Part shown: one piece after another, positions 4,001 through 20,614 of the stretch
Layout: each line of letters begins with the position of its first letter
How positions within the stretch are numbered: position 1 is the stretch's first letter
From: Saccoglossus kowalevskii
Lineage: Eukaryota; Hemichordata; Enteropneusta; Harrimaniidae
Direction of reading: 5' to 3'
Length of the DNA stretch: 20,614 nucleotides
NCBI RefSeq assembly: GCF_000003605.2
Contig: NW_003133843.1
Coordinates: forward strand, 453,704-474,317
The notes under the pieces: generated by a model
Told to the model about the DNA's origin: nothing
Database searches by the model: none
Seen by the model: the letters and a program-made list of their open reading frames with translations, nothing else
Position numbers and translations under genes: made by a program

Positions 4001-4625
4001 GTTTACTAAGCATGATATAGGAGTTGCTGTTAAGTTTACAGCAGAATTGTATTTAATTTACCAAGTGATGTGATTACTTATATTTATATATGTACAAAAC
4101 CACATGTATATCGCTGCTTTAAAACGTACTTGTCACATCAGATATACGTCTCCAAATAACTGGGGAAGAACTATTTAATGTGATCAGTAAAAATGTGAAA
4201 AGTGTGACGACCTTTGCTACTTCCATCTAATGGATGCTGCCAGTCATTGGACGGGTAACTAAGACGTTTACAGACACACTTGTGTGAACAAATTCAGAGT
4301 TCTACCAATCTAGAATGCTCAATCTTCGATTTTGTTCCTTTTAGTTATACAAAATTTCTTTTTATGTGACTATTTTAACTCAGTGTAAAATCCTACCTTG
4401 TCTTATTTCGATTTCCCTGTCACTGTCGAGCTATACAAACATTAGTAATATCACAATTTTAGTTTTATTCCTGGCCTGAACAATTTTGTTAATGACGTGT
4501 ACCACACCTTAAGGGATACTCATGTTCACTGTAACATTTTGTGCTACTCCTGCTACTCCCAGCAATGCTGACCAGATGTTCGCTGATGCAGGTACTGACA
4601 CTTACACTAATATTTATACCAACAC
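1100..4625. repeat. Large old inverted repeat IR1 (arms about 1 kb and 0.5-0.6 kb)
   Basis: Reverse-complement matches run from 1101-1440 to about 4270-4625, and from 1960-2105 to 4100-4252. Anchors include TTCCTGGCCTGAACAA (4466 region against the complement near 1240-1255), CACTTGTGTG (4277 against 1430), TAATGGATGCTGC (4229 region against 1975) and TATATCGCTGCTTTAA (4107 against 2098). The left arm carries about 510 bp more (1442-1955) than the right. Identity looks like 70-80% by eye, clearly lower than in IR2. No transposase frame was found in the loop (about 2170-3990). Confidence 0.72.
2170..3985. other. Loop of IR1, no gene recognised
   Basis: AT-rich sequence with a more GC-balanced patch at about 2160-2460. 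The short open frames here (2540-2800 minus, 3764-3970 plus) have no domain, low-complexity composition and no clear splice partners. Nothing functional can be named. Confidence 0.5.
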
Positions 4626-4629
4626 TACA

Positions 4630-5554
4630 GCTCAATTTCCAAAAACATTACATTACTGTTTTTTTCTATTCATATAATAATTAACACACTAAAATACTTT
4701 ACCATATATTTTTATTAGGGTGGGGGTAGTATTGGGAACACTGCGTGAATAAAAGTCGATTGATTTGTATCTTGATTCAAAATTTAATCACTGTCTTTTA
4801 AAGCAAGATTTGGAGCTATGCATTGAAATATAAGATATATAAAACGAGAATACAACATTTTATTTTATCTAATGAAATTTAATGTAAAGTAAATTGTGTC
4901 ACAATATTTTGCTATCACCAAAAATAACTTATTTTCAAAATCGTTTTATTTCCTAAAATAATGTACAATGTTGTATATAGTTGTCTTTTAGCATCGTTGG
5001 TGCTTGTTGCAAGTTTTATGAAAACCTCACATTCATTTTATATGATTTACGTTTAAATTTGTTTACGCTAATTTAAACATTGTTCAGTTGATTAAGTTAT
5101 TCTCATAAATATTATTTTTGTTCCTTTTGACAAGACGAATGGTAATCCTAATAGCGACCATCACGTGATCGTTTGTCACCCAAGACATCAATAATAATAT
5201 TGTTCTAATAATGATCAATTGCATCTGTTACTTCAATATTTCTTTAGTTGTTTGTTTATTTATTTATTTATTTATTTATTTATTTGCCTACGTGCATGTG
5301 TGCGTGAGTGAATGTGGGCCTTCCTGACTGTTTGCTTGTCTGCTTATAGTCCAGTATTAAATTATGACTTGGTGGTGGAATCAACAATTCTGTCCAGTTG
5401 AATGGCAGATGAATCGGCAATCGATGATCCACTTTACATACTAATGACGTCATAATCTATGGATATTGAACCTTATCCAATATGAAGTTATACTTCCGAC
5501 CAATTGTGACTCAAGAATACTAACAAGAACATAACTGACGCAGAGTCTTGCCCC
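4630..5554. other. Gene-free AT-rich DNA 3' of the VWD gene
   Basis: No coding exon, RNA gene or mobile element recognised. Only the TTTA microsatellite and an isolated 10-bp palindrome, ATCACGTGAT at 5160-5169 (contains an E-box), stand out. Confidence 0.5.
5255..5285. repeat. (TTTA)n microsatellite
   Basis: Nearly eight perfect TTTA units, in sequence with no other recognisable content downstream of the VWD gene. Confidence 0.95.
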
Positions 5555-5760: not shown

Positions 5761-8700
5761 CTGAAAATAATAATAAAGCAGCATGAGTGTCCATAACTAA
5801 TCAATTTCAACATTTTGTTCAGATGTTTTTCCCCGCGTCTTTGTGATTTTCTCGCATTGATATAGAATATTTTGAAAATAATCTGTACATCGTTTTTTTC
5901 AAATAAAAGTCACAGTTTATCGTTCAAGGACCATGACATTTATCCATATACTTTTGTTTAACGTATATACAATAAATGTACGACACATCTCAATATTATA
6001 AGTATATGTGCTATATGTGTGTAATATAATTTCCATTACATAAACATGCACAATTTTTGGAAATCTGTATCTCATATTTCTAATCATAGTAAGACAATAT
6101 CCCATTTTGATCTAATCCTAAATGAATTCTGAAATGGATACATATTTGAGTTGACGAGATATGTCTGCATGACTATTCGACTATTTAGTTCAAAATACGA
6201 ACTTACCCATTTCCATAACCCCAGCTTGTGTGAAATTCTGCATCAGTTATTGCATTCACTCCGTCTGGTGTAATCGTCTCATTTTCAGGACTTCCATTTG
6301 CATCGCCACATAAACCATGGATATCGTAACATTGACTGTAAGGCTGGGAAACGTCGATTTCTACTCTTCTGATGCCCCACCTGACGACAATGTCGTAATA
6401 TCCGTCCAAGTCGAGATCCATTGTAACGTGATAGCTATCGGCATGTTTACGTAATAGGAATTGATTGTACGTACCATAATATTCCGGGAGAACTGCATCA
6501 TCTATTAGTGACGACGCCCCACCCGGTGTAAGCTGAAAACAGAAAGCAGAACATACATATTGGACACAACTGTTACTCGTACACGTATTGTACGTATTGT
6601 ATCGTATTGTGGAAAGACAAATAGATGTACGTTGAGGACACATACAATTTATTTTTGGATTTATGAATGTTTCGAACTGATTTTCAAACAACTCAAAATC
6701 TACAATGGTAAACAAACGCTTCAAAATCTATGCTAACCACGTAGTCAAGGCAAGTACAGTGTGAGCAGTAATATGCAATCACATACAAACAATATACATG
6801 TGGGAAGGTTAAGCTATTCCGCCGAGTTTATAGAAGTAACACTACAACGAAATTCATGCATAACTGGAGGGTGTTATTATAGATGTCCAATGGGCGCGAT
6901 TGTAAAGATTCATATTAATGTTAATAATGTGATGTAAATAAATCCACGTTTCAGTGTCTACTTAAAACCCTGTACTGGTGTCCGACAGTCAGTTGAGAGT
7001 CACGTGGCTTTGAAACAGATAGAGGACACATGGTTTTGAATCAGTCAGTCGAGAAACTCATGGCTTCGAAAACGTCATTTAAGGGACACGTGGCTTTGAA
7101 ACAGATTAGGAACACATGACATTGAAAAGTCAGTTGAGCGGCACATGACTTTGATACAGTCAAGGGACACGTGGTCTTGAAAGAATCAGTGTAGGGATCA
7201 GTCACTTGGGGTGCATGAAAAAGTTATGGAACATATGGCTTTGAAAGTCAGTTGAGGGGATTGGGGATTGTTTGATTATGATGTCAAAATACGAAATGCT
7301 TACCAAATATGTGACAGGATTGAAGCCATCATTAGGTCCAAGCGTGAACGTTTCACCTCCTTATATTAGTAGCAGCGATCCTAAACGATAATGGTCTTTG
7401 GTTTTGTGCTCAGTCACTTTAACATCTATTCTGAAGTCGTTCCCACAAGCCATGTGCATAAGTGAATACAAAGCACAATCACCACCTTGATGATACTTGT
7501 ATCCATCGAAAGTACAGATACGCGGATCTCCATGTACTGTGCAAGTGACCGTCTCTGAGAGAAATACAATAATTTTGTAAATTTTTTAATCAGTTAATAT
7601 TCAGTATGCAATATGGTACTTTATTAAACTAAATTTGGTTAATTATATTTTAATACCGCAAAATACAGGAAAAAATGATTTTTCTGTGAAAATATATTTT
7701 TTATTCTAGCCTTTCGGGCAGATAATAACATGGGCCTAGTTCAAGGCACTAGAAGTATATGTAGAATTACGTTGAACTCACTTCGATTTGTTGACACTCC
7801 GATATAAATACTAAACCAGTATTTGTTTGCCACAGTTGAGTCATGCATTCAGGCTGTAAAGTAGGCAGTAAATGGTTAAAACTAAATTTTTGTGGCAATA
7901 CATAACAAGTAAATTCACTAAAATACGAGAAACATTAGAAAACATTAAAATTGAAAAAACAAATAAATTCATTGGAGCACGAAAAACAGTACAATCATTT
8001 TGATAATGTGGCATTTAAATTAAACATCCAAGTAGCAATCTGCGACTTGATTTTTTATTTCGTGTTACCATAGTAATTTTAATAAAAGAGAAAACAATTT
8101 GCATTTAATTTAAATGAAGTTACATATGAAACTCACTCGTGCGGTTGTACAGTATTCATATTTATCAGGATCAGATTCTGGTTTCAGCAAGCACTCAGCT
8201 AAAGACATTTTATCTGATAGTTTGCACTGTAAACACTTGCTAGCTGTAAATTATATATTATAACAGTCAGTTCAAAGTGAATATAAGTCATTTATCTGTT
8301 CTGTTCCTATACCAATTTGAGTAAACAAGCACATAGTGAAGAAACCAGCACTGTGGGAGTGTACAAAAACGAAGTAACGGCTTTGCCTGTTACATAAACA
8401 CGTAAGTATTTCTACCAGTGGTATATGTACTGTCACAACTACTGTGTTTCTCGAATTGTATTACAAAATGTATTCTCTACTAAGTCAAATTGTTTACACA
8501 TTCAAACAATCTGTCTTTTAAAATGACACTCTTGAACCACAACAACAATGTTAAAAAAATATTAATTATACTACCTTGTCCCTGACCAGGTACCATAAGG
8601 TCATGTGGGTTTCCTTCAGCACGCTTTACAACTTTGGCATAGGACTGACAAGCAATCTGAAATGCAAAAAAAATTGTCGTTTTTTTTTCAAATGCGTCAT

Positions 8701-9507
8701 TATTTGAAGCACGTTCGCCGATTAATTTAGTTGATGACTCGGATGGCTATGTTTGATTTTAGAGACTTTTCTAAACCTAAAATCCATCGTTCACAGTGTG
8801 TGTGCGCATAACCTAACACAGATACAGCGATGCACAAATATAATAGAATATCGATATATACACACTAAACGCATCTATCTAAAATCTATATCACAGCTTA
8901 ATTCATATTTAAATTCAAAGCTCTATGTACAAATGTTCATTCAGATTGTTAACTGTAGCGAATTCTGATTTCATAGGATATTTCTATTTATTAGAAGTTT
9001 GAAATACCTAGTAATATGTATGTTTGAGTAACTCCCTGAGGTTGGACAAATAATACCAAAACAATTCTGTTCATATATAACATTAACACTGTACCACTGA
9101 ACTATCACTGTACCAAAACGGTATAAAAATATATAAATAAAATGCGTCACTTCTGTGGTCGAAGAATTTCGATGGTGTACATCAATCTATATACAGGTTT
9201 AACTATAAAGCAACTAACAGAAATGATGTAAACTTTGAAGCCACCGACTTTACGTTCGAAACTAAATAAACAAAACATAGCCTTGTTTTCTTGTCCAGCA
9301 ATATAACTACTTGAGCAAAACATATTATCTCTTGCGTTCATTGCCATATTTACCGAGCAGTATAGTTCGATCCACTACGAATTTTGACACCTTCAAATAC
9401 TTACAGTAACGACATTTAGTACATTTAATGCGCCAGATATAGCAACCATCAAATCAAAATCACATCTGATCATTGAATTTTATTGAAGTATAAAATTAAT
9501 TATATAG

Positions 9508-9605
<98 letters not shown>

Positions 9606-10222
9606 TAGCTCACTGCTAATGTCAATAAATATAATTTGATTTTCAATCATAATACAACGGACTGTCGGAAAATTGCAGTAGTTGTTTTAGAAACAAGAAA
9701 TAGTCAGTTAATTGCGAGGAGGCCAACTCGAAGTACATAGTACAAACAAGAGACGTGCCGTTAAAATGAGTCGCGTTTTTAAGATTTTTCAAGTATAAAT
9801 TTGGGTTCGATTATTTACGATGGGTATAAATTCGGTATTATTTTGTCAAGATGAGAAGACTTCCTATTCATTTAGATCTATATTGCTTGCCTTAGTGTAT
9901 TGTCCCAGGGGACATAAATTGAAATATCGAGTTATATCATTATTTACAACGGATTTTACAAAAGACAGGAACAATTATAAGTAGTTTGTGATGCTTTTAC
10001 ACATAGGACACCAAACATGATTTAGAAAAACTGGGGTATACACACGGGTTATACAAAATGTACTAGCTTTAAATATGAATATAGATTTTGTAGCTACTTT
10101 CGTAGAAAAAGAAATATAATACTTTCCCCTACCCAGCAATGAATCAAGTGGGAGTGAACGTATGGAATACGATTACTTACCGCGAGGATCACGAGATAGG
10201 AAACGATCAGACAACGATGCAT
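5730..10222 (-). CDS. Secreted single-VWD-domain protein, seven exons, interrupted by an in-frame TAA
   Basis: Assembled from exons 10222-10181, 8656-8575, 8243-8137, 7853-7782, 7552-7304, 6532-6207 and 5760-5730. All junctions are GT-AG with compatible phases, and the total is 909 nt (302 codons plus stop). Seen in order: start codon with an in-frame TGA at 10234-10232 just upstream; a hydrophobic signal peptide (about residues 4-16) spanning the first junction; Lys-Arg at 25-26; six cysteines at 45, 48, 59, 73, 80 and 97; a VWD domain from about 103 to 290, with GDPR at 109-112, TFDG at 115-118 and the GLCGDANGSPENE block at 257-269; and a ten-residue tail. Two N-glycosylation sequons lie at N263 and N268. 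VWD domains occur in mucins, zonadhesins and other extracellular multimeric proteins, but usually several per chain with C8/TIL modules, which are absent here. Codon 165 is TAA, so the allele is truncated or the base is an error. Extracellular adhesion or matrix is inferred only. Confidence 0.78.
6207..6532 (-). CDS. Exon 6 of the VWD gene: C-terminal half of the VWD domain
   Basis: The acceptor is TTTCTGTTTTCAG and the donor GG|GTAAGT, both near consensus. The 108 whole codons give the back half of VWD: an LP motif at 199-200, DLDGYYDIVVRW at 225-236, then CYDIHGLCGDANGSPENE and TPDG, ending in FHTSWGYG, which corresponds to the usual F-x-N-S-W end of the domain. It ends in phase 2. An open frame runs a further 192 nt upstream of the acceptor, but that part has no VWD similarity and is intronic. 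Confidence 0.88.
6533..7303 (-). other. Intron 5 of the VWD gene, splitting the VWD domain
   Basis: This phase-0 intron of 771 nt separates the N- and C-terminal halves of the VWD domain. Its 5' (high-coordinate) half is largely filled by a degenerate minisatellite. Confidence 0.8.
6985..7260. repeat. Degenerate 25-30-bp minisatellite in intron 5
   Basis: Around nine imperfect units read on the plus strand as GTCAGTTGAG..CACRTGGCTTTGAAA with length variation (about 23-40 bp). The cores CACGTGG, CACATGG, CACATGA and CATATGG recur with a following TTTGAAA or TTGAA. No unit is identical to its neighbour, so the array is old. It has no coding signal. Confidence 0.7.
7304..7552 (-). CDS. Exon 5 of the VWD gene: N-terminal half of the VWD domain, contains TAA
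   Basis: Eighty-three codons in phase 0. The acceptor is written CTCAGAG: an AG two bases earlier would shift the frame, so the second AG (7554-7553) is chosen. The frame starts TVTCTVHGDPRICTFDGYKY, the canonical VWD opening, except that the usual His of GDPH is Arg and there is an extra Cys at 114. The FRIDVKV strand follows. Codon 64 of the exon (7363-7361) is TAA, flanked by good VWD-like sequence on both sides in the same frame (SLLLI before, GGETFTLGPN after). The donor is TTG|GTAAGC. Confidence 0.8.
7782..7853 (-). CDS. Exon 4 of the VWD gene: second part of cysteine-rich module
   Basis: This exon is 24 codons, phase 0 at both ends, with acceptor TTTACAG and donor GAA|GTGAGT. It opens Pro-Glu-Cys (Cys80) and contains Cys97 in SECQQ. 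It completes an even count of six cysteines in the module before the VWD domain, consistent with three disulfides. The acceptor is closely similar to that of exon 3. Confidence 0.7.
8137..8243 (-). CDS. Exon 3 of the VWD gene: first part of cysteine-rich module
   Basis: The acceptor is AATTTACAG and the donor CGA|GTGAGT. Only one frame is open, and it begins with the two bases that complete the split Ala42 codon. It encodes a CxxC pair (45, 48), then Cys59 and Cys73. The spacing resembles the start of a Ly6/uPAR-like (three-finger) fold, but the exon is short and no diagnostic terminal CN pair is seen, so the module is left unclassified. It ends in phase 0. Confidence 0.72.
8575..8656 (-). 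CDS. Exon 2 of the VWD gene: end of signal peptide and linker
   Basis: The acceptor is TTTGCATTTCAG. The exon opens with Ile-Ala-Cys, completing the signal peptide core, so cleavage is likely near Ala16 or Ser19. It continues through a polar stretch with Lys-Arg at 25-26, a possible proprotein processing site, and a Gly/Pro/Gln-rich end. The donor is G|GTAGTA, weaker than the others. It ends in phase 1 (82 nt), which fits the two-base start of exon 3. The 1,524-nt intron before it contains the long TA microsatellite. Confidence 0.7.
8657..10180 (-). other. Intron 1 of the VWD gene (1.5 kb)
   Basis: GTAAGT donor and TTTGCATTTCAG acceptor separate the two halves of the signal peptide. It contains the 92-nt TA repeat at 9510-9601. 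The short open frames at 8753-8968 (+) and 9147-9347 (-) lie here and show no recognisable motif. Confidence 0.65.
9510..9601. repeat. (TA)n microsatellite, about 46 units
   Basis: An uninterrupted alternation of T and A for about 92 nt, inside intron 1. It can extrude as a cruciform and is a likely assembly-length uncertainty. Confidence 0.97.
10181..10222 (-). CDS. Exon 1 of the VWD gene: start codon and first half of signal peptide
   Basis: Fourteen codons beginning MHRCLIVSYL and ending on Ala (GCG), followed at once by a consensus GTAAGT donor (10180-10175). The ATG has G at -3 (GCCATG), and the reading frame is closed by TGA four codons upstream, so no longer start is available. The exon ends in phase 0 and matches the phase of exon 2. 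Together they make an uninterrupted hydrophobic stretch, which is strong support for pairing two pieces 1.5 kb apart. The overlapping plus-strand frame is antisense to this exon. Confidence 0.72.
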
Positions 10223-10239
10223 GGCGTCTTCTCAGGATG

Positions 10240-12498
10240 GAGCAAAAAAATGAAACTAATTTTCAATATATAGAGTTTTTGATTGAGAAATATGGCATCA
10301 CAACTTGTCAATCATTTCGCGTGTTACTCAACGCGTGGTACCAGATGTCAACTTAAATAAAAAACAGTGATAAGTATCTGAATGCACAGGGCGTTTTTTG
10401 TGTTATATTTTGCCATATAAATGCCGGCATGTTTCTTGCAATAAATATATTTCCATTATGTGTATATGTGTCTGTATCTCAAATCATGATAATGAGAGAA
10501 TCTATTAATTTACCAAAATACCTTTACCAAAAGTCCAGCATTCTCTGTCATAATATATGCATATGATATTTGTCTGACGCACAGGAAGGGATTAACTAAC
10601 AATATATTTGACCAACTATGAACAATCGCTAACAATGAAATGCCATATAAGCTGTCAAACTAAATATTGGTTTGTTCCAGCAAAAAACATAACATTTAAG
10701 ATCATCTTACACGCGCGCATGTATGTCAGCACGAAACAAATGTTAAAATATAGAATCAGAGATCATAATACCATTTACAAAATTTAAGTGTGGTTCATCC
10801 TTATACTAGCATAAAACACAAGAAAGGAATTATTCATTTGCTCAATCCCAGTGATTTTACCAAGTGCTCATGGGTAATTTCAATTCCGAAATCTTGTCTC
10901 CAAACACTGTCTAAATCAACACTTATCGTTTTCTCTTTCCCTTAGTAAAGCAACAGATGTCTCAAACATGTTAAGAAATTAAAGATGCTTATTTAAATAC
11001 GGCAACTGTAGTACTACTTTCGGCTTGTTGTCAATAGCGGACACTTTTCTTTGGTGATTGCGCAACTATGCTATGTACAGGTCATTGGCCAATTCATCAG
11101 CCATTTTCAATCTAAGCAAAATGAGTTAATATACTGTGACACACTACACCTAAACCGCACAAAATTCGCAATATTACTTCGTACATCAACTCGAACGCTG
11201 AAGGTAGTTAACGATCTGTCTACGGGCTACGGGGATTCACAAAGCCTCATGTTCGCCAGCCAAGAATAATTTAAATCGTCGCATCACCATCACCTTGCAT
11301 ATTTACTATTAGAAACCTGTATTCATTGACAAAATCAAACAATAGTGCGTGACCGAGTTTTTATCATTTACGCTATGACATGATATAAAACAGCAAGATT
11401 TATTGGTTTAAAAAAGAACCGAAAATAAGTATAGGGCATATATGCCAGTTACGGTGTTTGAAAACCAACTGCGACTCCAAAAAATGTGGTTAATGTATGC
11501 AAAATGCCTTTCAATAAACTAAAACGATAATCCCCTAGATTTGTGTTCAATCTCCAAAGCTTGTTAATTTGCAAAGACTATAACCATGCCGTACTGTGTC
11601 TAACGATTAATGACAATAGCGTAAAGATGTGCCTTCGTGATATCACACTTTTTAATCTCTTTTAGTTGTCCAGCGCTGTGGTCATATAATTGCCAGTGTA
11701 ATAAATAGTACTAGAATATAAATAAGCCGTGATGGTGACGCACGAGTTATAAGAGGAAGAAAATGTTGCGCTTGTTAAAAAAAAAAATGTCGTACTAACA
11801 GGATATTGATGCAAAAAATAAATATGCTGCGCTTGTTGTATGGATTCATATACGGCATTTCCTTCTCTACCGTATCTATTCAATGTATGACATCCATTAT
11901 GATGACGAAAGAGGGCCATTGTTAGGGTGATATAATTTATGTATATACAAAGTGCATATTTTGTGGTATGCTGGAGTTTGAAATTCCATGGTAACTGTAT
12001 GTGTATTTCACAAGTTCTCTACTGTTTTCAAATGCTCTATTTGGTAGTTGTGATCACTATGTTATGAATAAACAATGAGCTGATAGCCGTTCCAGCTAAT
12101 CTCATTAGCACGCCATAAGCAAGTTGTGTAAGCATATTGCTCTCTTGTAATATCAAGATTTACATGACGCTCAGATTTCAACAACAATATTGAACACTAC
12201 TAACAGACCTCTTACGCCTGCACCTTATTTTTTTTTCATGATAGATAATACCACAAACAATCGCAAGACCTGACAATCGGTTCAAATCTGTCTCCACTTG
12301 CCGATCGCTTGCTGAATAATTATTATCGAGAAACATTTACATGGTTAGAAGAACTAAGGACATATTGATAGCAATTTATAGATATATGTTAAATATCTAC
12401 TACAGTTGGCAATTTGTCCATTTGTCCTAATTTCACACAATATATCTACTTATATTATGGCATTATCAATACCAGTGGATTTTTTGACGTCATTGCAG
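10240..12498. other. Gene-free AT-rich DNA upstream of the VWD gene
   Basis: No exon with both a convincing splice context and a recognisable motif was seen on either strand. Short open frames at 11051-11269 (+) and 11662-11919 (-) have no family features. The gene's promoter should lie at the low-coordinate edge. Confidence 0.45.
10265..10272 (-). promoter_or_regulatory. Possible TATA box upstream of the VWD gene
   Basis: TATATATTG-like sequence lies about 45 nt upstream of the ATG on the minus strand, with a pyrimidine-rich TTTTTTTGCTCCATCC between. That would give a very short 5' UTR. TA-rich sequence is common in this window, so this is weak. Confidence 0.22.
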
Positions 12499-13101
12499 CA
12501 GATTATTCGCGATAACGTACCCCATTATTGAGCATCAAGGCCCTGGGCCATGGATATGAATACAATGTTGTTTTCGAGAACGAATAAAGGAGGAACTATT
12601 AAAAAGAGAAGAGAAATTGTTAGATAACAAGTATTTAATACTAAAATCGGCATCAAATAAAACAGTCCATTACCAATAACAGAGGATTTTAATATCAAAA
12701 TCAGAAAAATCATCGTCGTCTGGTCTGTACGCTAAAACGCGTTCGGTCGAAGCGTTCCATATAGTACGCGCGCTTCTAGATTCCGCGATTGATGCCGCTG
12801 TGCCGGTGGCCTCCCGACAATTTCGCCCTATCGTGTTGATGAAGTGACATTAACCGAGGGTTATTTATCCAAGTAAATGCGATAAACTAAATGTGGGTAC
12901 AATGTATGTCTACGAGTACAGAGAAACAAATTTGTTCTGTTCCGGGCGCAATTTGCATAAGCAAAAGAAAGTATCCGTGTTTTCGGGGGTGTATTTTTCT
13001 TATTCATACAGTCAGATTAAAATCACTGTTGGTTCTAGGATGGCTAACACCCACTAGCTTTCCAGCCATGTTCGTTAGCTCGCTACGCCTGTAATTTTCA
13101 T

Positions 13102-13299
13102 TTGGCTTGTAAGTATTCGTCAAATCACCGACCTCCCATACAATTAAATAACTATAACACAGACAGGACAGTTTCTAATAACGTCTACCTTGATGGTTTG
13201 AAAACACCAGGGGTCGGGTTACGATGCAACTACGTAAATGTACCCCTGGTACGCACAGTCGATTCAGCTGGGCCTCGGTGGCAATCTAGCATAGCGTAG
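13102..13299 (+). pseudogene. Left-arm counterpart of the unassigned IR2 reading frame
   Basis: It reads CKYSSNHRPP, NNVYLDGLKTP, a diverged stretch, then RTVDSAGPRWQSSIA and TAG. Relative to the right arm it has a 3-nt deletion, then deletions of 2 and 10 nt that sum to 12, so the end returns to the same frame. Upstream, an insertion of about 20 nt with a stop separates it from its GWLTPTSFPAMF part (ending near 13072). It is probably non-functional. Confidence 0.35.
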
Positions 13300-13619
13300 T
13301 GCAAGGCCGCAGCGGACACCGATACGACGTAACAGTCATGGTGTGATGCTCGCTCGGGCGATCACTGCAATGCTACTCCAAACCACGCATCAGTCACCCA
13401 TTCACTCGTTCAATACAATAATATTTGCTTGATTAAAACTGTTTTCTTTCTTACTTTGTCATATGAGCTTGTGAAAACAATTTCTAGAAAGACATTAAAA
13501 ATTATTCAGATTCACGGGCCAGTGACTGTGAAACTCTTCCGTTCACTTTGGATTTGTCTCCAAATTTTCCGCTTTTTAGAGGCAGCAAATCCATTGGTAT
13601 TGACAACGCTACAAAATAT

Positions 13620-13760
13620 AACAACTTCCCAACAACCCATAATGGCCCCAAGCACAGTTTGTGTCCCATATATGTACTCGGCTCACGCCCCGCACATATA
13701 TGTCGCACAAAGAGATCAGAGCTTTCGCCCATTATGGGTTGGCGGGTCGTTCATTATTGT
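13620..13760 (+). repeat. Nested hairpin in IR2 left arm
   Basis: AACAACCCATAATGG (from about 13631) pairs with CCCATTATGGGTT (13728-13740), and CATATATG (13668-13675) with CATATATG (13694-13701) around an 18-nt loop containing GGCTCACGCCCCG. The stem is about 50 nt per side with bulges. It is orthologous in position to the right-arm hairpin but lacks the outermost 13-bp pairing. Confidence 0.75.
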
Positions 13761-13843
13761 TTCATTAAAATGGTAAATATAAACATATTCTACTGTACTC
13801 CGTAGTTTTATGTCCGTTGTCTGTGAGAATATGTGAATCACGG

Positions 13844-13938
13844 AGCATCAAAACAAGATTGGCAGTACTAAAATAGATTCAAATCTCTGTCTTTCAGTTA
13901 TTACTGGTATATAGTCAACGGTCTCAGCGGAAGAAATA
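13844..13938 (+). repeat. 95-bp module, copy a (IR2 left arm)
   Basis: This is a direct repeat of 14555-14649. Shared landmarks are GAGCRTCAAARC, AGATTGGCAGTAC, CTTTCAGTTATTACTGGTA and GGTCTCAGCG, the last followed by AAGAAAT. Copies also sit inverted at 18331-18427 and 19137-19231 in the right arm. Confidence 0.8.
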
Positions 13939-14554
13939 TCTAGTGATTATTTATGCATGAGCACGTATATTACACCATATTATAAAATATAATATGCGAC
14001 CGTCACACTGATACAATAATATCGTTCACTCTTCCCCAATGACTTAGCAGATCAATACCGAACTATGCATAGAACCCACTTTCACCCCACTTTCACTGTC
14101 GGTTATCGTCCTTGTAATCTCCTTCAGAACCAATGTCAAGCAATGCAATATCGGAACCAGACAAACAAGTCAACCCTTGTATATATTTACTGTACCGTTC
14201 GTATTTTTAAATGATTCAAAATAAACAACAGTAGTCACCGATTGATACAAGCTCGTATTCAACTATTGTAAATTACAGTGAATCACACACTGTTCATTTT
14301 GAACTGTCTAGCTGATTCCATTTGCGCTGACATTGTCTTTTTTTACCAACGATAGGGTAAGGGTAGCGATTTCAGCCGAGTTAAGGTGAAGTGTGAGGGT
14401 CGTACTTTGTGGAAAGTAGCCAGCACCGGTGTTGTAATTATCGACTACGGAAAAAATATACGTACGGGCACTAAAACTGGTCAATTGAAACCCTGACCTC
14501 ATGATAATCACGGTAACTCCAACATGGTGGAATGTGCGATTGTGAACCGACAAG

Positions 14555-14649
14555 AGCGTCAAAGCCAGATTGGCAGTACAAAAGAGCAATTCATATTCAA
14601 GTCTTTCAGTTATTACTGGTAAATAGTATGTGGTCTCAGCGCAAGAAAT
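14555..14649 (+). repeat. 95-bp module, copy b (IR2 left arm)
   Basis: Second copy, about 711 bp from copy a in the same orientation. Divergence between a and b (about 75-80% by eye) exceeds that between arms, so the module was duplicated before the arms formed. Confidence 0.78.
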
Positions 14650-14968
14650 TATAAAATATTTACAACAAAATTAAAGCTTTTTAGCAGGTCTATGACCAAA
14701 TCTGATTTACTGCTAATTCCGTCGAAAATGTCTTCCCCATATATTAGTAGGAATTAATAACATTGTATATGCACTGATTTTATTAGTTAAATTTAAGAAA
14801 TCAGGTTAATTGTTGGCTAAATTTTAAATTACATCACAGGGAATTGCGAGCAATCATTTTATTAATCTGTTCTACATATTGGTGTTTGTTGGACATGATA
14901 AATAACGATAATTTTGACTTTCAACGAAATCAAGTACGACTAAATCGGAGAAGAAAATCAACATTCAG

Positions 14969-15000
14969 GATCACACTTGAATGAATTTAAAAGTGTGATC
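14969..15000. repeat. Perfect 10-bp stem inverted repeat
   Basis: GATCACACTT (14969-14978) and AAGTGTGATC (14991-15000) flank a 12-nt loop. The right-arm counterpart near 17969-17997 is less perfect. Confidence 0.8.
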
Positions 15001-15431
15001 AATTTATATCACCAAAATCACTTCCTTTCCATAACTTTCAATTAATCGTAATATTCAAATCAGTTCATACACAATTTGTTGGCATTTGAAAACTTGAATA
15101 AATATATAACTTTCGACGAAATGGTCATTCGACGGAGTGGACTTTCGAAATGTTGTAAGCCACGAACAAGAAAATAAGTCATTCATTTATTTATCATCAC
15201 TGTTCGTGATATTTTTACTAGTCACCGCCTGCTGTTAAATAAACACGCATCACCAGTGTAACGGAAGACGTTTGTTGATATACAGTGAAGTCTGTGATTG
15301 TTAATTTGCATAAGCGCATGCATGTCCAGTAGTGTGTTTCCTGCTGAGTTCTCCTCAACCTCTACCATTGGCTTATTATCAGACTGAATATAATATGTAG
15401 TGGGATTTATTGTACTAGGGTAACAAATTAT

Positions 15432-16283
15432 TGCAAAGACAATATAATGCAAATACAATATAAAACTGTCAAGCCAATGCAAATCCAATGCAAAGACAAT
15501 ATAAAAATGTCAAGCCAAAGCCAACCTAATGCAAAGACAATATAAAACTATCAAAACAATGCCAACCCAATGCAAAGACAATATAAAAATGTCAAGCCGA
15601 AGCCAACCTAATGCAAAGACAATATATAAATCAAGCCAATGCCAACCGAATGCAAAGACAATATAAAACTATCAAACCAATGCCAACCCAATGCAAAGAC
15701 AATATAAAAATGTCAAACCAATGCCAACCTAATGCATAGACAATATAAAAATCAAGCCAATGCCAACCGAATGCAAAGACAATATAAAACTATCAAACCA
15801 ATGCCAACCCAATGCAAAGACAATATAAAAATGTCAAGCCAATGCCAACCTAATGCATAGACAATATAAAAATCAAGCCAATGCCAACCGAATGCAAAGA
15901 CAATATAAAAATGTCAAACCAATGCCAACCTAATGCATAGACAATATAAAAATCAAGCCAATGCCAACCGAATGCAAAGACAATATAAAAATGTCAAGCC
16001 AATGCCAACCCAATGTAAAAACAATATACAAATGTCAAGCCAATGCCCAAGGCATAGACAATATAAAAATGTCAAAACAATGCCAACCCAATGCATAGAC
16101 AATATAAAAATGTCAAACCAACCCAAGGCATAGACAATATAAAAATGTCAAGACAATGCCAACCCAATGCATAGACAATATAAAAAAATGTCAAGCCAAT
16201 GCCAACCCAATGCATAGAGAATATAAAAATGTCAAGACAATGCCAACCTATTGCATAGACAATATAAAAATGTCAAGACAATT
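15432..16283. repeat. 41-bp minisatellite with 121-bp higher-order period
   Basis: There are about 22 copies of a unit built as CAATGCCAACC, then YAATGCAWAGACAATATAAA, then ATGTCAAGC; some units lack 3-4 bases. From 15520 three successive blocks of three units repeat with a period of 121 bp (the phrase GCCAACC(T/G)AA starts at 15520, 15641, 15762 and 15883). Later units are single-period. One edge abuts the mariner-like element. Apparent reading frames rich in Asn, Met and Gln here are repeat artefacts. Confidence 0.95.
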
Positions 16284-16290
16284 ACTCGTA

Positions 16291-17089
16291 CAACGTGTCC
16301 AAAAAGTTCGTTCACATTAATTAGCAATCAATAAAACAAAAACATTCTGATAGAATCACATAATTTAATTTCCACTGTGTCCCCATTCATCTTAATAACA
16401 GTTTTGAGCCGATCATGCATAAAGTGCACCAAGTCATTTAGAACCGATGGCTCAATATTCTCCCATTCCTTTTCCTCTACTTTTTGGACATAAGGGGTTG
16501 GCTGCTGAAGATTCTGTTATTCAGTATCCCCAGCAGTTCTCAATTATATATTCAAGTGTGGTGAGTTGAGAGGGGGGAATTCTTCTTTACGAAGAAAAAC
16601 CAGGAAGTTTCCTGGGACACCATTCCTGGCTCACACGGGCGGCACGAGCAAGTGCACCATCTTGCATGAACACCATGTCCGAGCTTCGTTTGTATGACAG
16701 GACCACTCCTCTTTTTTCTGCTCACGATGGGCACCAGTATCGGTTCCAGTATCTCCTGCAGAGTATTGAGCGTTTACTGTGGTTCCCCATGGCATGAAGC
16801 TCAAAAGAAGGCACTTTCTCAGAACTATTGCTGTTCTGGACTCAAGCTGACATACTTCCTGGCGAAGGTCAGTCTTTCCCTTTCTGGATCTCTGTCAGTC
16901 GTGGTATTTTGGGCATCTTGTATGCCCTCAAACCAGTTTTCTGGGTGAAATAGGGATAAACAGTGCTCTTAGATCCTTTCTCGTCAATGTTTTTTTGTCG
17001 GCGAGCTGGATGACCAGTTGGTGTCGTATGTGAGTATAATGGGGGTAGATGCCTGAACAATAAGGGGAACAAACTTTTGGGACACGGTG
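16291..17089 (-). mobile_element. Decayed mariner-like element, 799 bp
   Basis: Terminal inverted repeats of 29 bp (16291-16319 and 17061-17089) agree at about 24 positions: CAACGTGTCCAAAAAGTTCG against CACCGTGTCCCAAAAGTTTG. Both ends are flanked by TA (16289-16290 and 17090-17091), the mariner/Tc1 target dinucleotide. Full-length mariners are about 1.3 kb, so roughly 0.5 kb is missing. It sits at the edge of the minisatellite in the centre of IR2, so it probably arrived after that structure formed. Confidence 0.88.
16328..17072 (-). pseudogene. Mariner transposase remnant, frameshifted and with stops
   Basis: Pieces in several frames on the minus strand: GLRAYKMPKIPRLTE at about 16934-16890, like the mariner segment between the HTH and catalytic regions; VFMQDGALA followed by QEWCPRKLPGF at about 16673-16610, like the QDGA block holding the second catalytic Asp; then PPS and WGY remnants of the last catalytic block, with its Asp not preserved in the expected SPDLxPxD form; and WENIEPSVLNDLVHFMHDRL at about 16460-16402, ending MNGDTVE and a stop at 16330-16328, like the usual C-terminal RL..CI..NGG end. 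At least two stops and several shifts rule out activity. Confidence 0.82.
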
Positions 17090-17091
17090 TA

Positions 17092-17651
17092 CATGCATTA
17101 GCGTCGCTAAGTTAAACAGTGTCAGTGGAAAAGATTCAGATTCACAAAAACAGCAGCGAACAACTAATTGTTGTGTGTTTGTTGTTTTACTGAAGCAGTA
17201 ATCAAAGACAAAAGTTGTATCAACCACGGTCTATCTAACCCCGTACTTGTACCAAAGCTCATATCGGGTGATTGAAATGTTGACACCTTCTGATAGGTAT
17301 TCCGGAAGTTATATTATCGGTAACTCGATCAAAATAAGCGTGTATATAATTAACTTACAGTTCAGTGCGTAAGCGTGGTCAGGCATAATAACATCAAGAA
17401 ACACAGAAGTCATTTGGGGATTTTACATTTAAAGTACTTTACCAATTTGGAAATGGGTTGTTCTAAATATAAACATCATCACAGATGTCCAAAAGTTATG
17501 GGACGAAATAGATCAGATAAATAGATAGATAGATCGAATTTGGTTCAAATCACTGTGAACGCGGATTTCCCGACGAGCATCGAGTGTTCCCCAAGTAATC
17601 CAGCTGATTTACACTTCAAAAAATGAGCGTTTCCAGACTGGAGATAGAGGG
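17092..17651. other. Right part of the IR2 centre, no gene recognised
   Basis: Unique-looking AT-rich sequence between the mariner-like element and the right arm. Only a short GATA/ATAG run (17517-17533) is notable. There is no counterpart on the left side of the minisatellite. Confidence 0.5.
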
Positions 17652-18330
17652 ACTGTCTATCAACAAATGTCTTCCGTTAAACTGGTGGCGCGTGTTTATT
17701 AACAGCAGGCGGGGATTAGTAAAATTACGAACAGTGATTGTAAATATATACAGAAGTGAATGACTTGTTTTTCTGTTCGTGGCTTACATTGCCTGTGAAG
17801 GGCGAGGACTACGACATTTCGAAATTTCATTCCGTCGAATGACCATTTCGTCGAAAGTTATATATCGTTAAGTAAGCTTTCAATTGCCAACAAATTGTGT
17901 ATGAACTGAATTGAACATTACAATTAATTGAAAGTTATGAAAAGGAAGTGATTTTTGGAGATCTAAAGTGATCACACTTAATTCATTCAAATGTGATTCT
18001 GAAAGTTGATTTTCATCCCCTATTTAGTAGTATTTGATTTCGTCTAAAGTCATAATTATCGTTATTTATCATGTCCAACATGACCCCATGTGTAGAGCCG
18101 ATTAATGAAAGGATTGCTCACAATTCTATGTGAACAATTAACCTGATTCCTTAAATTTAACTAATAAAATCAGTACATATACAATGTCAATAATTCCTAC
18201 TAATATATGGGGAAGGAATCAAGGCTTGGGAGCAACAGACAAAACACATTTGCGACGTAATTAGCAGTGAATCAGATTTGGTCATAGACCTGCTAAAACG
18301 CTTTAATTATGTTGGAAATATGTTGGAATT

Positions 18331-18427
18331 TCTTTCTTGCGCTGAGAACGCATACTATGTACCAGTAATAACTGAAAGACTTGGATATGAATTGCTCTCT
18401 CATACTGCCAATCTGGCTTTGACGCCC
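18331..18427 (-). repeat. 95-bp module, right-arm counterpart of copy b
   Basis: Reverse-complement copy carrying CCAGTAATAACTGAAAG and ACTGCCAATCTGGCTTTGA in the plus strand. Confidence 0.78.
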
Positions 18428-19136
18428 GGTCGATTCACAATCGCACAGTCCATCATTTCGGAGTTACCGGGATTACCATAAGGTAATGGGGTAAGGATTT
18501 CAATTGCCTTATGCAATATTCGCCATTATGTTATCCCGAACTTGCTACAGCCAGTTTCAGTGCCCGTACGTATATTATTTCCGTACTCGATAATTACAAC
18601 ACTGGTGCTGGCTACTTTCCACAGAGTACGACCCTCACACTTCACCTTAACTCTGGCTGAAATCGCTACTCTTACATACTTTATCGTCGGTAAATTAAAC
18701 AATTTCAGCGGAAATAGAATCAGCTCGACAGTTCAAAATGAATTGCGTGTAAATTATTGATTCACTGTAATTTACAATAGTTGAATACGAGCTTGTATCA
18801 AAAACTAGTGACGCGTGTTTAACAGCACCAGGCGGTGACGAGTGTTGTTTATTTTGGATCATTTGAAATACGAACGGTACAATAAATATATACAAGGGTT
18901 GACTTGTTTGTCTGGTTCCGATATTGCATTGCTTGACATTGGATCTGAAGGACGATTACAAGGACGATAACCGACAGTGAAAGTGGGTTCTATGCACAGT
19001 TCGGGATTGATCTGTTAAATCTAGCATTCACTGGGGAAGAGTGAATTACGATATTATTGTATCAGTGTGACGGTCGCATATTATATTTTATAATATGGTG
19101 TAATATACGTGCTCATGCATAAATAATCACTAGATA

Positions 19137-19231
19137 TTTCTTCCGCTGAGACCGTTGACTGTATACCAGTAATAACTGAAAGACAGAGATTTGAATCTAT
19201 TTTAGTACTGCCAATCTTGTTTTGATGCTCC
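19137..19231 (-). repeat. 95-bp module, right-arm counterpart of copy a
   Basis: Reverse-complement copy carrying CGCTGAGACC, CCAGTAATAACTGAAAG and TACTGCCAATCTTG in the plus strand. Confidence 0.78.
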
Positions 19232-19311
19232 GTGATTCAAATATTCTCACAGACAACGTACATAAAACTATGGAGTACAGTAGAATATGTTTATATTTAC
19301 TATTTTAATTA

Positions 19312-19455
19312 AACAATAATGAACGACCCACCAATCCATAATGGGCGAAAGCTCACCTTGTGCGACATATATGTGCGAGGCGTGAGCCGAGTACATATAT
19401 GGGGCACAAAGTGTGCTTGAGTCCATTATGGGTTGTTGGGGAGTTCATTATTGTT
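19312..19455 (-). repeat. Nested 144-nt hairpin in IR2 right arm
   Basis: The ends AACAATAATGAAC (19312-19324) and GTTCATTATTGTT (19443-19455) are a perfect 13-bp inverted repeat. The pairing continues through CCATAATGG and CATATATG to a short loop. Size, terminal inverted repeats and near-total palindromy fit a palindromic MITE or a hairpin-RNA precursor. No target-site duplication could be made out with certainty. Confidence 0.78.
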
Positions 19456-19789
19456 ATTATTTTGTAGTGTTGTCAATACCAGTTGATTTGCTGCCTCTAA
19501 AAAGCGATAAATGTGGAGACAAATCCACAGTGAACGGAAGAGTTTCACAATCACTGGCCCGTGTAACAGAATAATTTAAAATGTCTTTCTGGAAATTTTT
19601 TCCATAATCTCATATGGCGAACTAAGAAAGAAACTAGTTTTAATCCATGAAATATTGTTGTATTGAACTCATTTACATTGTAGGTGAATGAGTGACTGAT
19701 GCGTGGTGTGGAGTAGCATTGCAGTGATCGCACGAGCGAACGGCACACCGTGACTATTATGCCGTATCGGTGTCCTCCGCGGTCTTGCA

Positions 19790-20056
19790 CTACGCTACGC
19801 TAGATTGCCACTGTGGTCCAGCTGGATCGACTGTGCGTAAGAGTGCGTACCAGGGGTACATGTACGCAGTTTCATCGTAACCCCATCCCGCTGGTGTTTT
19901 CAAACCATCAAGGTAGATGTTATTAGGAACTGTTCTGTCTGTATTATAGTCATTTTCAAATTGTACAGGAGGTCGGTGATTTGACGAATACCTACAAGCC
20001 AAACGAAACATGGCTGGAAAGCTGGTGGGTGTTAGCCATCCTAGAGGGAGAACCAA
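19790..20056 (-). CDS. Unassigned 80-odd-residue reading frame in IR2 right arm, possible terminal exon
   Basis: The open frame contains GWLTPTSFPAMF, then CRYSSNHRPP, NNIYLDGLKTP and RTVDPAGPQWQSS, ending at TAG. An acceptor-like GTTCTCCCTCTAG precedes the Gly-Trp, and a possible upstream exon with its own ATG (20207 to about 20097) ends at CAG|GTGTGT. The left arm has the same frame in pieces (see the entry at 13102). It resembles no family I know. It could be a host gene fragment, a domesticated or decayed element gene, or chance conservation in a repeat. The region is richer in CpG than its surroundings. Confidence 0.3.
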   Translation of the reverse strand: MVLPLGWLTPTSFPAMFRLACRYSSNHRPPVQFENDYNTDRTVPNNIYLDGLKTPAGWGYDETAYMYPWYALLRTVDPAGPQWQSSVA

Positions 20057-20614
20057 AAGTGATTTTAATCTGACTGTATAAATAAAAAATACACACCTGA
20101 AAACACGTGCACGGATACTTTCTTTTGCTTATGCAAACTGTGCCCGGACTGTGACATTTACCGGGAGCCGACGTTGAGAAAATACAAGTCACGTGCACGT
20201 CGGCCATCGTCGATCCACACTTAGTTTATTGCATTTGCTTGGATAAATCACCTTCGGTTAACCTCACTTCATCAACACGATAGGGCGAAGTAGTCGGGAG
20301 GCCACCAGGACAGCGGCATCACTCGCGGAATTTAGAAGCGCGCGTACTTGATGTAACGCTTCGACCGAACGCGTTTTTGCATACAGAGCAGACAACGATG
20401 ATTTTTCTGATTTTGATATTTAAATCCGCTGTTATTGGTATTATACCGTTTTATTTGATGCCGATTTTAGTATTAAATACTTGTTATCTAACAATTTCTC
20501 TTCTTTTTCAATAGTTTCTCCTTTATACGTTTTTGAAAACAACATTGTATTAATATCCATGGCACAGGGCCTTGATGCTCAAACATGGGTACAATATCGC
20601 AAATAATCGTCATA

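Follow-up and report, generated by a model that had tools for sequence, protein, structure and literature searches.

The question that this locus raises is how a long sequence came to stand opposite its own mirror image: as a mobile element, as a duplicated piece of a gene neighbourhood, or as an error of assembly. The locus lies in a stretch of 20,614 nucleotides from the hemichordate Saccoglossus kowalevskii (contig NW_003133843.1, here C2559, positions 453704-474317), which is the window referred to throughout; it belongs to a 572-Mb assembly of 4,830 contigs. An earlier note, made from the letters alone, had described a giant foldback here, perhaps a foldback-type transposon, a palindromic segmental duplication or a non-autonomous element with long terminal inverted repeats. 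We consider it likely that the palindrome goes back to an old inverted duplication of a segment, head to head, within a VWD-domain gene cluster, and that dispersed repeats are nested in it.

The long inverted arms are real and were recovered both by BLASTN and in a MAFFT alignment.

12501-15286, plus strand: left arm, the part matched by BLASTN to 20608-17652 and aligned with it
17652-20614, minus strand: right arm, matched by BLASTN up to 20608; from there it stays inside a dispersed element, E, until the window ends and a run of N starts

The BLASTN match between 12501-15286 and 20608-17652 covers 3,036 columns at 80.9% identity, with 252 mismatches and 41 gap openings (E-value 0.0). The MAFFT alignment has 275 mismatches in 2,713 ungapped columns, that is 89.9% identity and a Kimura two-parameter distance of 0.109, with 35 gap events. 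The arms had been thought to be closely similar, which is not the case, as they are 8-12% diverged depending on the part (87.6% identity in E, 91.8% in the inner arm) and differ by many indels. The right arm runs out of letters inside E, where it is cut by the N run, and the measured arm length is therefore a lower bound; on the left, E starts around 12450, some 50 bases beyond the edge of the BLASTN match. Each arm consists of two parts with different histories.

12450-13768, plus strand: left E, Helentron/HINE-like and non-autonomous, scored at 38 other loci, with its ends read from the copies
19305-20614, minus strand: right E, truncated at the end of the window by the N run, sister of the contig C128 copy in the E tree
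13771-15286, plus strand: inner left arm, upstream region of the VWD gene A, not dispersed together with E and including short fragments of old dispersed repeats
17652-19304, minus strand: inner right arm, read from the genome search and the paralogue comparison as an inverted copy of the gene A upstream region

When the genome was searched with the left arm, 298 first-look candidates came up, of which 40 were scored. The scored ones contain 113 matches, which fall on both arms and on 38 further loci (37 contigs), and outside the window they all stop by base 1288 of the 2,802-base query, corresponding to window position 13786. What is dispersed is thus the outer ~1.3 kb of each arm, the element E. 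The inner part behaves differently: a search with 1,532 bases of it, in which all 19 candidates were scored, found, besides the arms themselves, only incomplete copies inside C2559:577202-581092 and, on other contigs, fragments 38-163 bases long.

These results bear directly on the idea of a foldback or long-TIR transposon, in which a single mobile unit, with its transposase elsewhere, would have the 3-kb arms as its terminal inverted repeats. The long inverted arms do flank a tandem array, and the arm ends are multi-copy. However, dispersal is confined to the outer 1.3 kb, which has a second end of its own near 13768, seen in 26 of 33 copies, whereas the inner 1.5 kb does not travel with it. 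Among the matches listed for the 38 other E loci (40 of 298 candidates scored), no second E in the opposite orientation was found nearby. The inner arm is instead gene-upstream sequence in a paralogous locus, and the arms of one element should be each other's closest relatives, yet the right E groups with a copy elsewhere (see below). We find a foldback origin very hard to believe.

The paralogous locus is found at C2559:574.3-594 kb, which holds a VWD gene on the plus strand (L041/L045). Upstream of this gene lie, in order, sequences like window 17247-18126, 18525-18880, 19081-19298, 12107-11805 and 11337-10877, and then the gene itself; E is absent from this order. Since the inner arm stands in the same order before a VWD paralogue, the arms look like inverted copies of the upstream region of a VWD gene. 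In the window, the upstream region of gene A takes in E and the inner left arm as far as 15286, and returns as a mirror image after the centre. Both arms have the same junction between E and the inner part, and their homology runs 1.5 kb beyond E. The arms are thus made of non-mobile inner sequence with cluster paralogues in the same order, L041/L045 for the inner part and C128 for the outer flank and E. Among the proposals of the earlier note, the evidence favours the palindromic segmental duplication. Positions 2398-4861 of L041 also hold two partial head-to-tail copies of a unit like 17090-18126, upstream of the paralogous gene.

Contig C128 carries a counterpart to the outer part of the arm. 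A minus-strand copy at 688.1-690.4 kb matches window 9912-12440, which is the upstream region and the first exon; 680000-688093 is N, and the gene body of this copy would sit in that run. After further cluster fragments, a plus-strand VWD copy at 694.4-704.4 kb stands head to head with it. The left junction of the C128 E is identical in place to that of the left E of the window. We built a tree of E from 32 rows, namely 30 of the 33 fetched copies (three short ones were dropped) and both window copies. The two window copies and that of C128 group in a single clade (100/99), in which the right E is sister to the C128 E and not to the left E (100/99), with a bootstrap that had not fully settled. 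The divergences agree with this: 0.125 between the gene A upstream region and C128, 0.127 between the left E and the C128 E, 0.142 between left and right E, and 0.086 between the right E and the C128 E. The gene A upstream region differs by 0.164 from the 574-kb paralogue and by 0.175 from the C128 plus-strand copy, and the two C128 copies differ by 0.142 from one another. On these distances, the splits from the 574-kb and C128 plus-strand copies, and that of the C128 pair, are as old as, or older than, the splits of the arms and of E.

The tree and the agreeing divergences fit one insertion of E, a duplication of the unit, and a C128 copy from the lineage of the right arm. We infer that E inserted once, before the left, right and C128 copies split, that the unit would then have been duplicated, and that a further copy on C128 probably followed from the right-arm lineage. 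The mirror layout may have come from an inverted duplication of the gene-plus-upstream unit, or from an inversion after its duplication, and the right arm would lead into a second, plus-strand VWD gene inside the N run. Later the arms would have diverged by ordinary mutation, with local arm-to-arm conversion at most. The palindrome is explained without any function of its own.

E is present in many copies, among them those in both arms and at the C128 rearrangement, and it is conceivable that the inversion was made by separate E insertions or by recombination between oppositely oriented copies of E. Nevertheless, the same junction in both arms, the 1.5 kb of homology past it and the single clade of the three E copies all speak against E as the cause. 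Recombination between E copies is possible as the source of the inversion itself, but taken as a whole we find this explanation improbable.

The closeness of the right E to the C128 E would also fit a false join of two separate loci through the minisatellite in the centre, in which case the mirror layout would be unreal. The window is a 20.6-kb contig between runs of N. To its left all bases read, C2559:443700-453699, are N; to its right 474318-484200 is N throughout, five of five 200-base probes within 485001-493200 are N, and bases resume at 495001. The central array, 850 bases long, is a plausible site for a false join. However, there is no N within the window, and the arms differ at 10% of the ungapped sites and are therefore not one sequence folded back. 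Furthermore, short fragments apart, the inner-arm sequence is otherwise known only from the same contig. We regard such a chimera as unlikely.

Some observations also weigh against the inverted duplication that we prefer. The second gene is predicted only, and the N run starts where the window ends. The right E would have its 5' junction inside that run, so that the case for a shared insertion is drawn from the inner junction and the tree. Beyond the gap no trace of a second gene copy turned up: six N-free probes of 200 bases at 495.0-510.2 kb matched the window and its paralogues no better than chance (16-24 bases), which neither supports nor counts out a second gene inside the gap. At the 574-kb locus, homology to the left flank is interrupted at ~12107-12350 and comes back up to ~12413, and ~120 unrelated bases stand at the place of E before homology resumes at ~13772. 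The locus at 577-581 kb is thus no clean empty site; it may have lost E, or may never have had it. The C128 pair, finally, differs from the palindrome of the window, as its E is cut at about window position 13675 and other cluster fragments lie next to it.

The earlier note had also suggested recent formation or ongoing conversion between the arms. The right E is a closer relative of the C128 copy than of the left E, so a recent origin of the arms and their homogenisation over the full length can both be set aside, and the E tree contradicts arm-wide conversion. What is left of the suggestion is one patch. The mismatches between the arms are unevenly spread, with perfect agreement over up to 126 columns in a row (0 of 2,000 shuffles).

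13834-14034, no strand: patch in which the arms are almost the same, with a single mismatch over 200 columns (0 of 500 shuffles); a candidate for a conversion tract, constraint or both

By a hand calculation, ~13 to 20 differences would be expected in 218 columns and 4 were seen, in a patch that was chosen after looking. In L041 the patch is 86% identical to the left arm, against 78% in two other blocks, and 86% identical to the right arm, against 82% and 84% elsewhere, which is hardly raised; constraint therefore accounts for part of the similarity at most. A local conversion tract is plausible, and the data are at most suggestive in this respect. The left arm also has a direct repeat of ~95 bases (13843-13937 and 14554-14649, 81%), and so has the right arm; it reflects an older duplication within the upstream region.

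The centre was expected to be satellite-bearing. The tandem array is there, but the centre as a whole is composite.

15432-16282, no strand: 41-bp minisatellite, a tandem array of period 41 with 20.8 copies (counted over 15446-16282)
16289-17091, minus strand: decayed Tc1/mariner-like element, multi-copy, with terminal inverted repeats next to TA
17095-17652, plus strand: right part of the centre, homologous to C2559:576.6-577.2 and 578.2-578.7 kb, without a counterpart in the left half

We group 17095-17652 with the right-hand half because the locus at 576.6-578.7 kb has it in the same order, and the comparison shows a unit that reached through 17095-17652, a stretch missing from the left arm. 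The minisatellite and the Tc1/mariner-like element lie outside the matched arms, and no matches to either are listed in the 577-581 kb locus. The Tc1/mariner-like element matches 15 other contigs (16 candidates scored, the window's own included), with one or both ends reached within ~10 bases. Its frames are broken and contain an 'MQDGA'-like motif, which we take to be a Tc1/mariner motif. It resembles the Tc1/mariner superfamily in its terminal inverted repeats next to TA and in these frames, but it is decayed, and its three broken pieces gave no match to a Pfam transposase. Short pieces of older dispersed repeats, ~69-86% identical to other contigs, were seen at 14680-14838, 17223-17424 and 17583-17670.

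The ends of E were read by eye from its copies. The 5' end is like TTATATTATAGCATTATC in 27 of 33 copies, and the 3' end like GTTCATTATTGTTT, near 13768 in the left E, in 26 of 33. The 3' part holds an inverted repeat of ~28 nt of the 5' end, followed by a terminal hairpin of ~145 nt. Both inverted repeats were found in 27 of the 34 copies examined, or 26 when L020 is left out, where the 5' match is an internal chance match.

13625-13762, plus strand: 3'-terminal hairpin of the left E (RNA fold of 13625-13770, -50.2 kcal/mol)
19312-19455, minus strand: 3'-terminal hairpin of the right E (self-inverted at 77.8% over 144 columns; RNA fold -72.9 kcal/mol)

The hairpin was matched in both orientations at 11 of 19 E loci. 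For target-site duplications we compared 24 copies, after dropping 10 of the 33 with an end missing or unclear and adding the left copy of the window. No offset or length stands out in 3,564 combinations, the best giving 6 matches against 2.0 expected, and a common target-site duplication was thus not found in these copies. Three copies, L050, L052 and L060, do have words of 8-9 bases common to both sides. Together, these features suggest that E resembles a non-autonomous derivative of a Helentron (HINE/DINE-1). As PMC4067079 describes them, HINEs of mites have inverted repeats of 12-15 bp and a terminal palindrome of 5-10 bp. E is like HINE/DINE-1 in its AT-rich insertion sites, in the palindrome at its 3' end and in carrying inverted repeats close to either end, and the lack of a common target-site duplication in the copies compared may be a further likeness. 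It is unlike the mite HINEs in that its inverted repeats (~28 nt) and terminal palindrome (~145 nt) are both longer.

In foldback elements and Galileo (PMC3688188, PMC4079207), long inverted arms likewise stand around other sequence with a tandem array midway; here, in contrast, the dispersed unit is E alone and the mirror structure is not dispersed.

Inverted, head-to-head segmental duplications are known from tandem gene clusters, and palindromes from mammalian sex chromosomes. The locus is similar to these in its mirror copies of gene plus flank around a spacer, its nested repeats and its neighbouring paralogues in both orientations. It differs in that the arms are 8-12% diverged, without homogenisation along the whole palindrome, and in that the second gene is predicted in an N run. 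Some literature searches on inverted duplication with head-to-head clusters brought up no paper.

Gene A itself lies on the other side of the left arm, and a second mirror pair is found beyond it.

6185-10231, minus strand: gene A, a VWD-domain gene, from Pfam PF00094 on two open reading frames and exon blocks common to the paralogues
1114-2098 and 4107-4616, no strand: older inverted pair on the 3' side of gene A, in blocks of 66% and 75% identity

The two VWD (PF00094) matches have E-values of 9.1e-07 and 1.7e-05. The exons, with approximate limits, are at ~6206-6535 and 7282-7562, with the first near 10187-10224. In the paralogue at C2559:589 kb the VWD exon is open, but in gene A (7264-7562, minus strand) it has an in-frame stop; gene A may thus be a pseudogene, and the mirror pair would then include one. 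A TA run of 51 units at 9501-9601 probably sits in the first intron, and the L045 paralogue has a similar run (4586-4696). VWD gene copies are found in both orientations on C2559, one of them on the plus strand at 435.8-442.3 kb, on the far side of the left-hand N run. Overlapping direct repeats of 84-92% identity occupy 70-910, at the left end of the window.

Coding arms were considered and rejected. Only 7 of the 35 inter-arm gap lengths are divisible by three. The region 12400-20614 has 46 stop-to-stop frames of at least 55 amino acids, and seven of them (four from the arms and three from the centre element) were scanned against Pfam with E-values up to 1. The sole match was a weak one to a domain of unknown function in a centre piece (E-value 0.18), below the cut-off. 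At the Rfam gathering thresholds no RNA gene was matched in the window; 12400-20614 gave one chance-level match (E-value 3.3), and no tRNA genes were found.

Mirror copies flank gene A on either side (12.5-20.6 kb, and the older pair of 1.1-2.1 with 4.1-4.6 kb) and recur on C128, and E sits at or beside two of these rearrangements, in the window and on C128. One may speculate, with considerable doubt, that one inverted duplication after another enlarges the VWD cluster, with E, on this reading a rolling-circle element whose terminal hairpin is unusually long, seeding the breaks and local conversion keeping a 200-bp upstream patch alike.

The 8-kb 'giant foldback' can thus be told apart from a mobile element, since the arm is dispersed just in part and the paralogues show the upstream order without the mirror. 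If E is a Helentron derivative, its hairpin of ~145 nt modestly extends that group. For the organism, the palindrome marks a VWD gene cluster that has been rearranged in both orientations.

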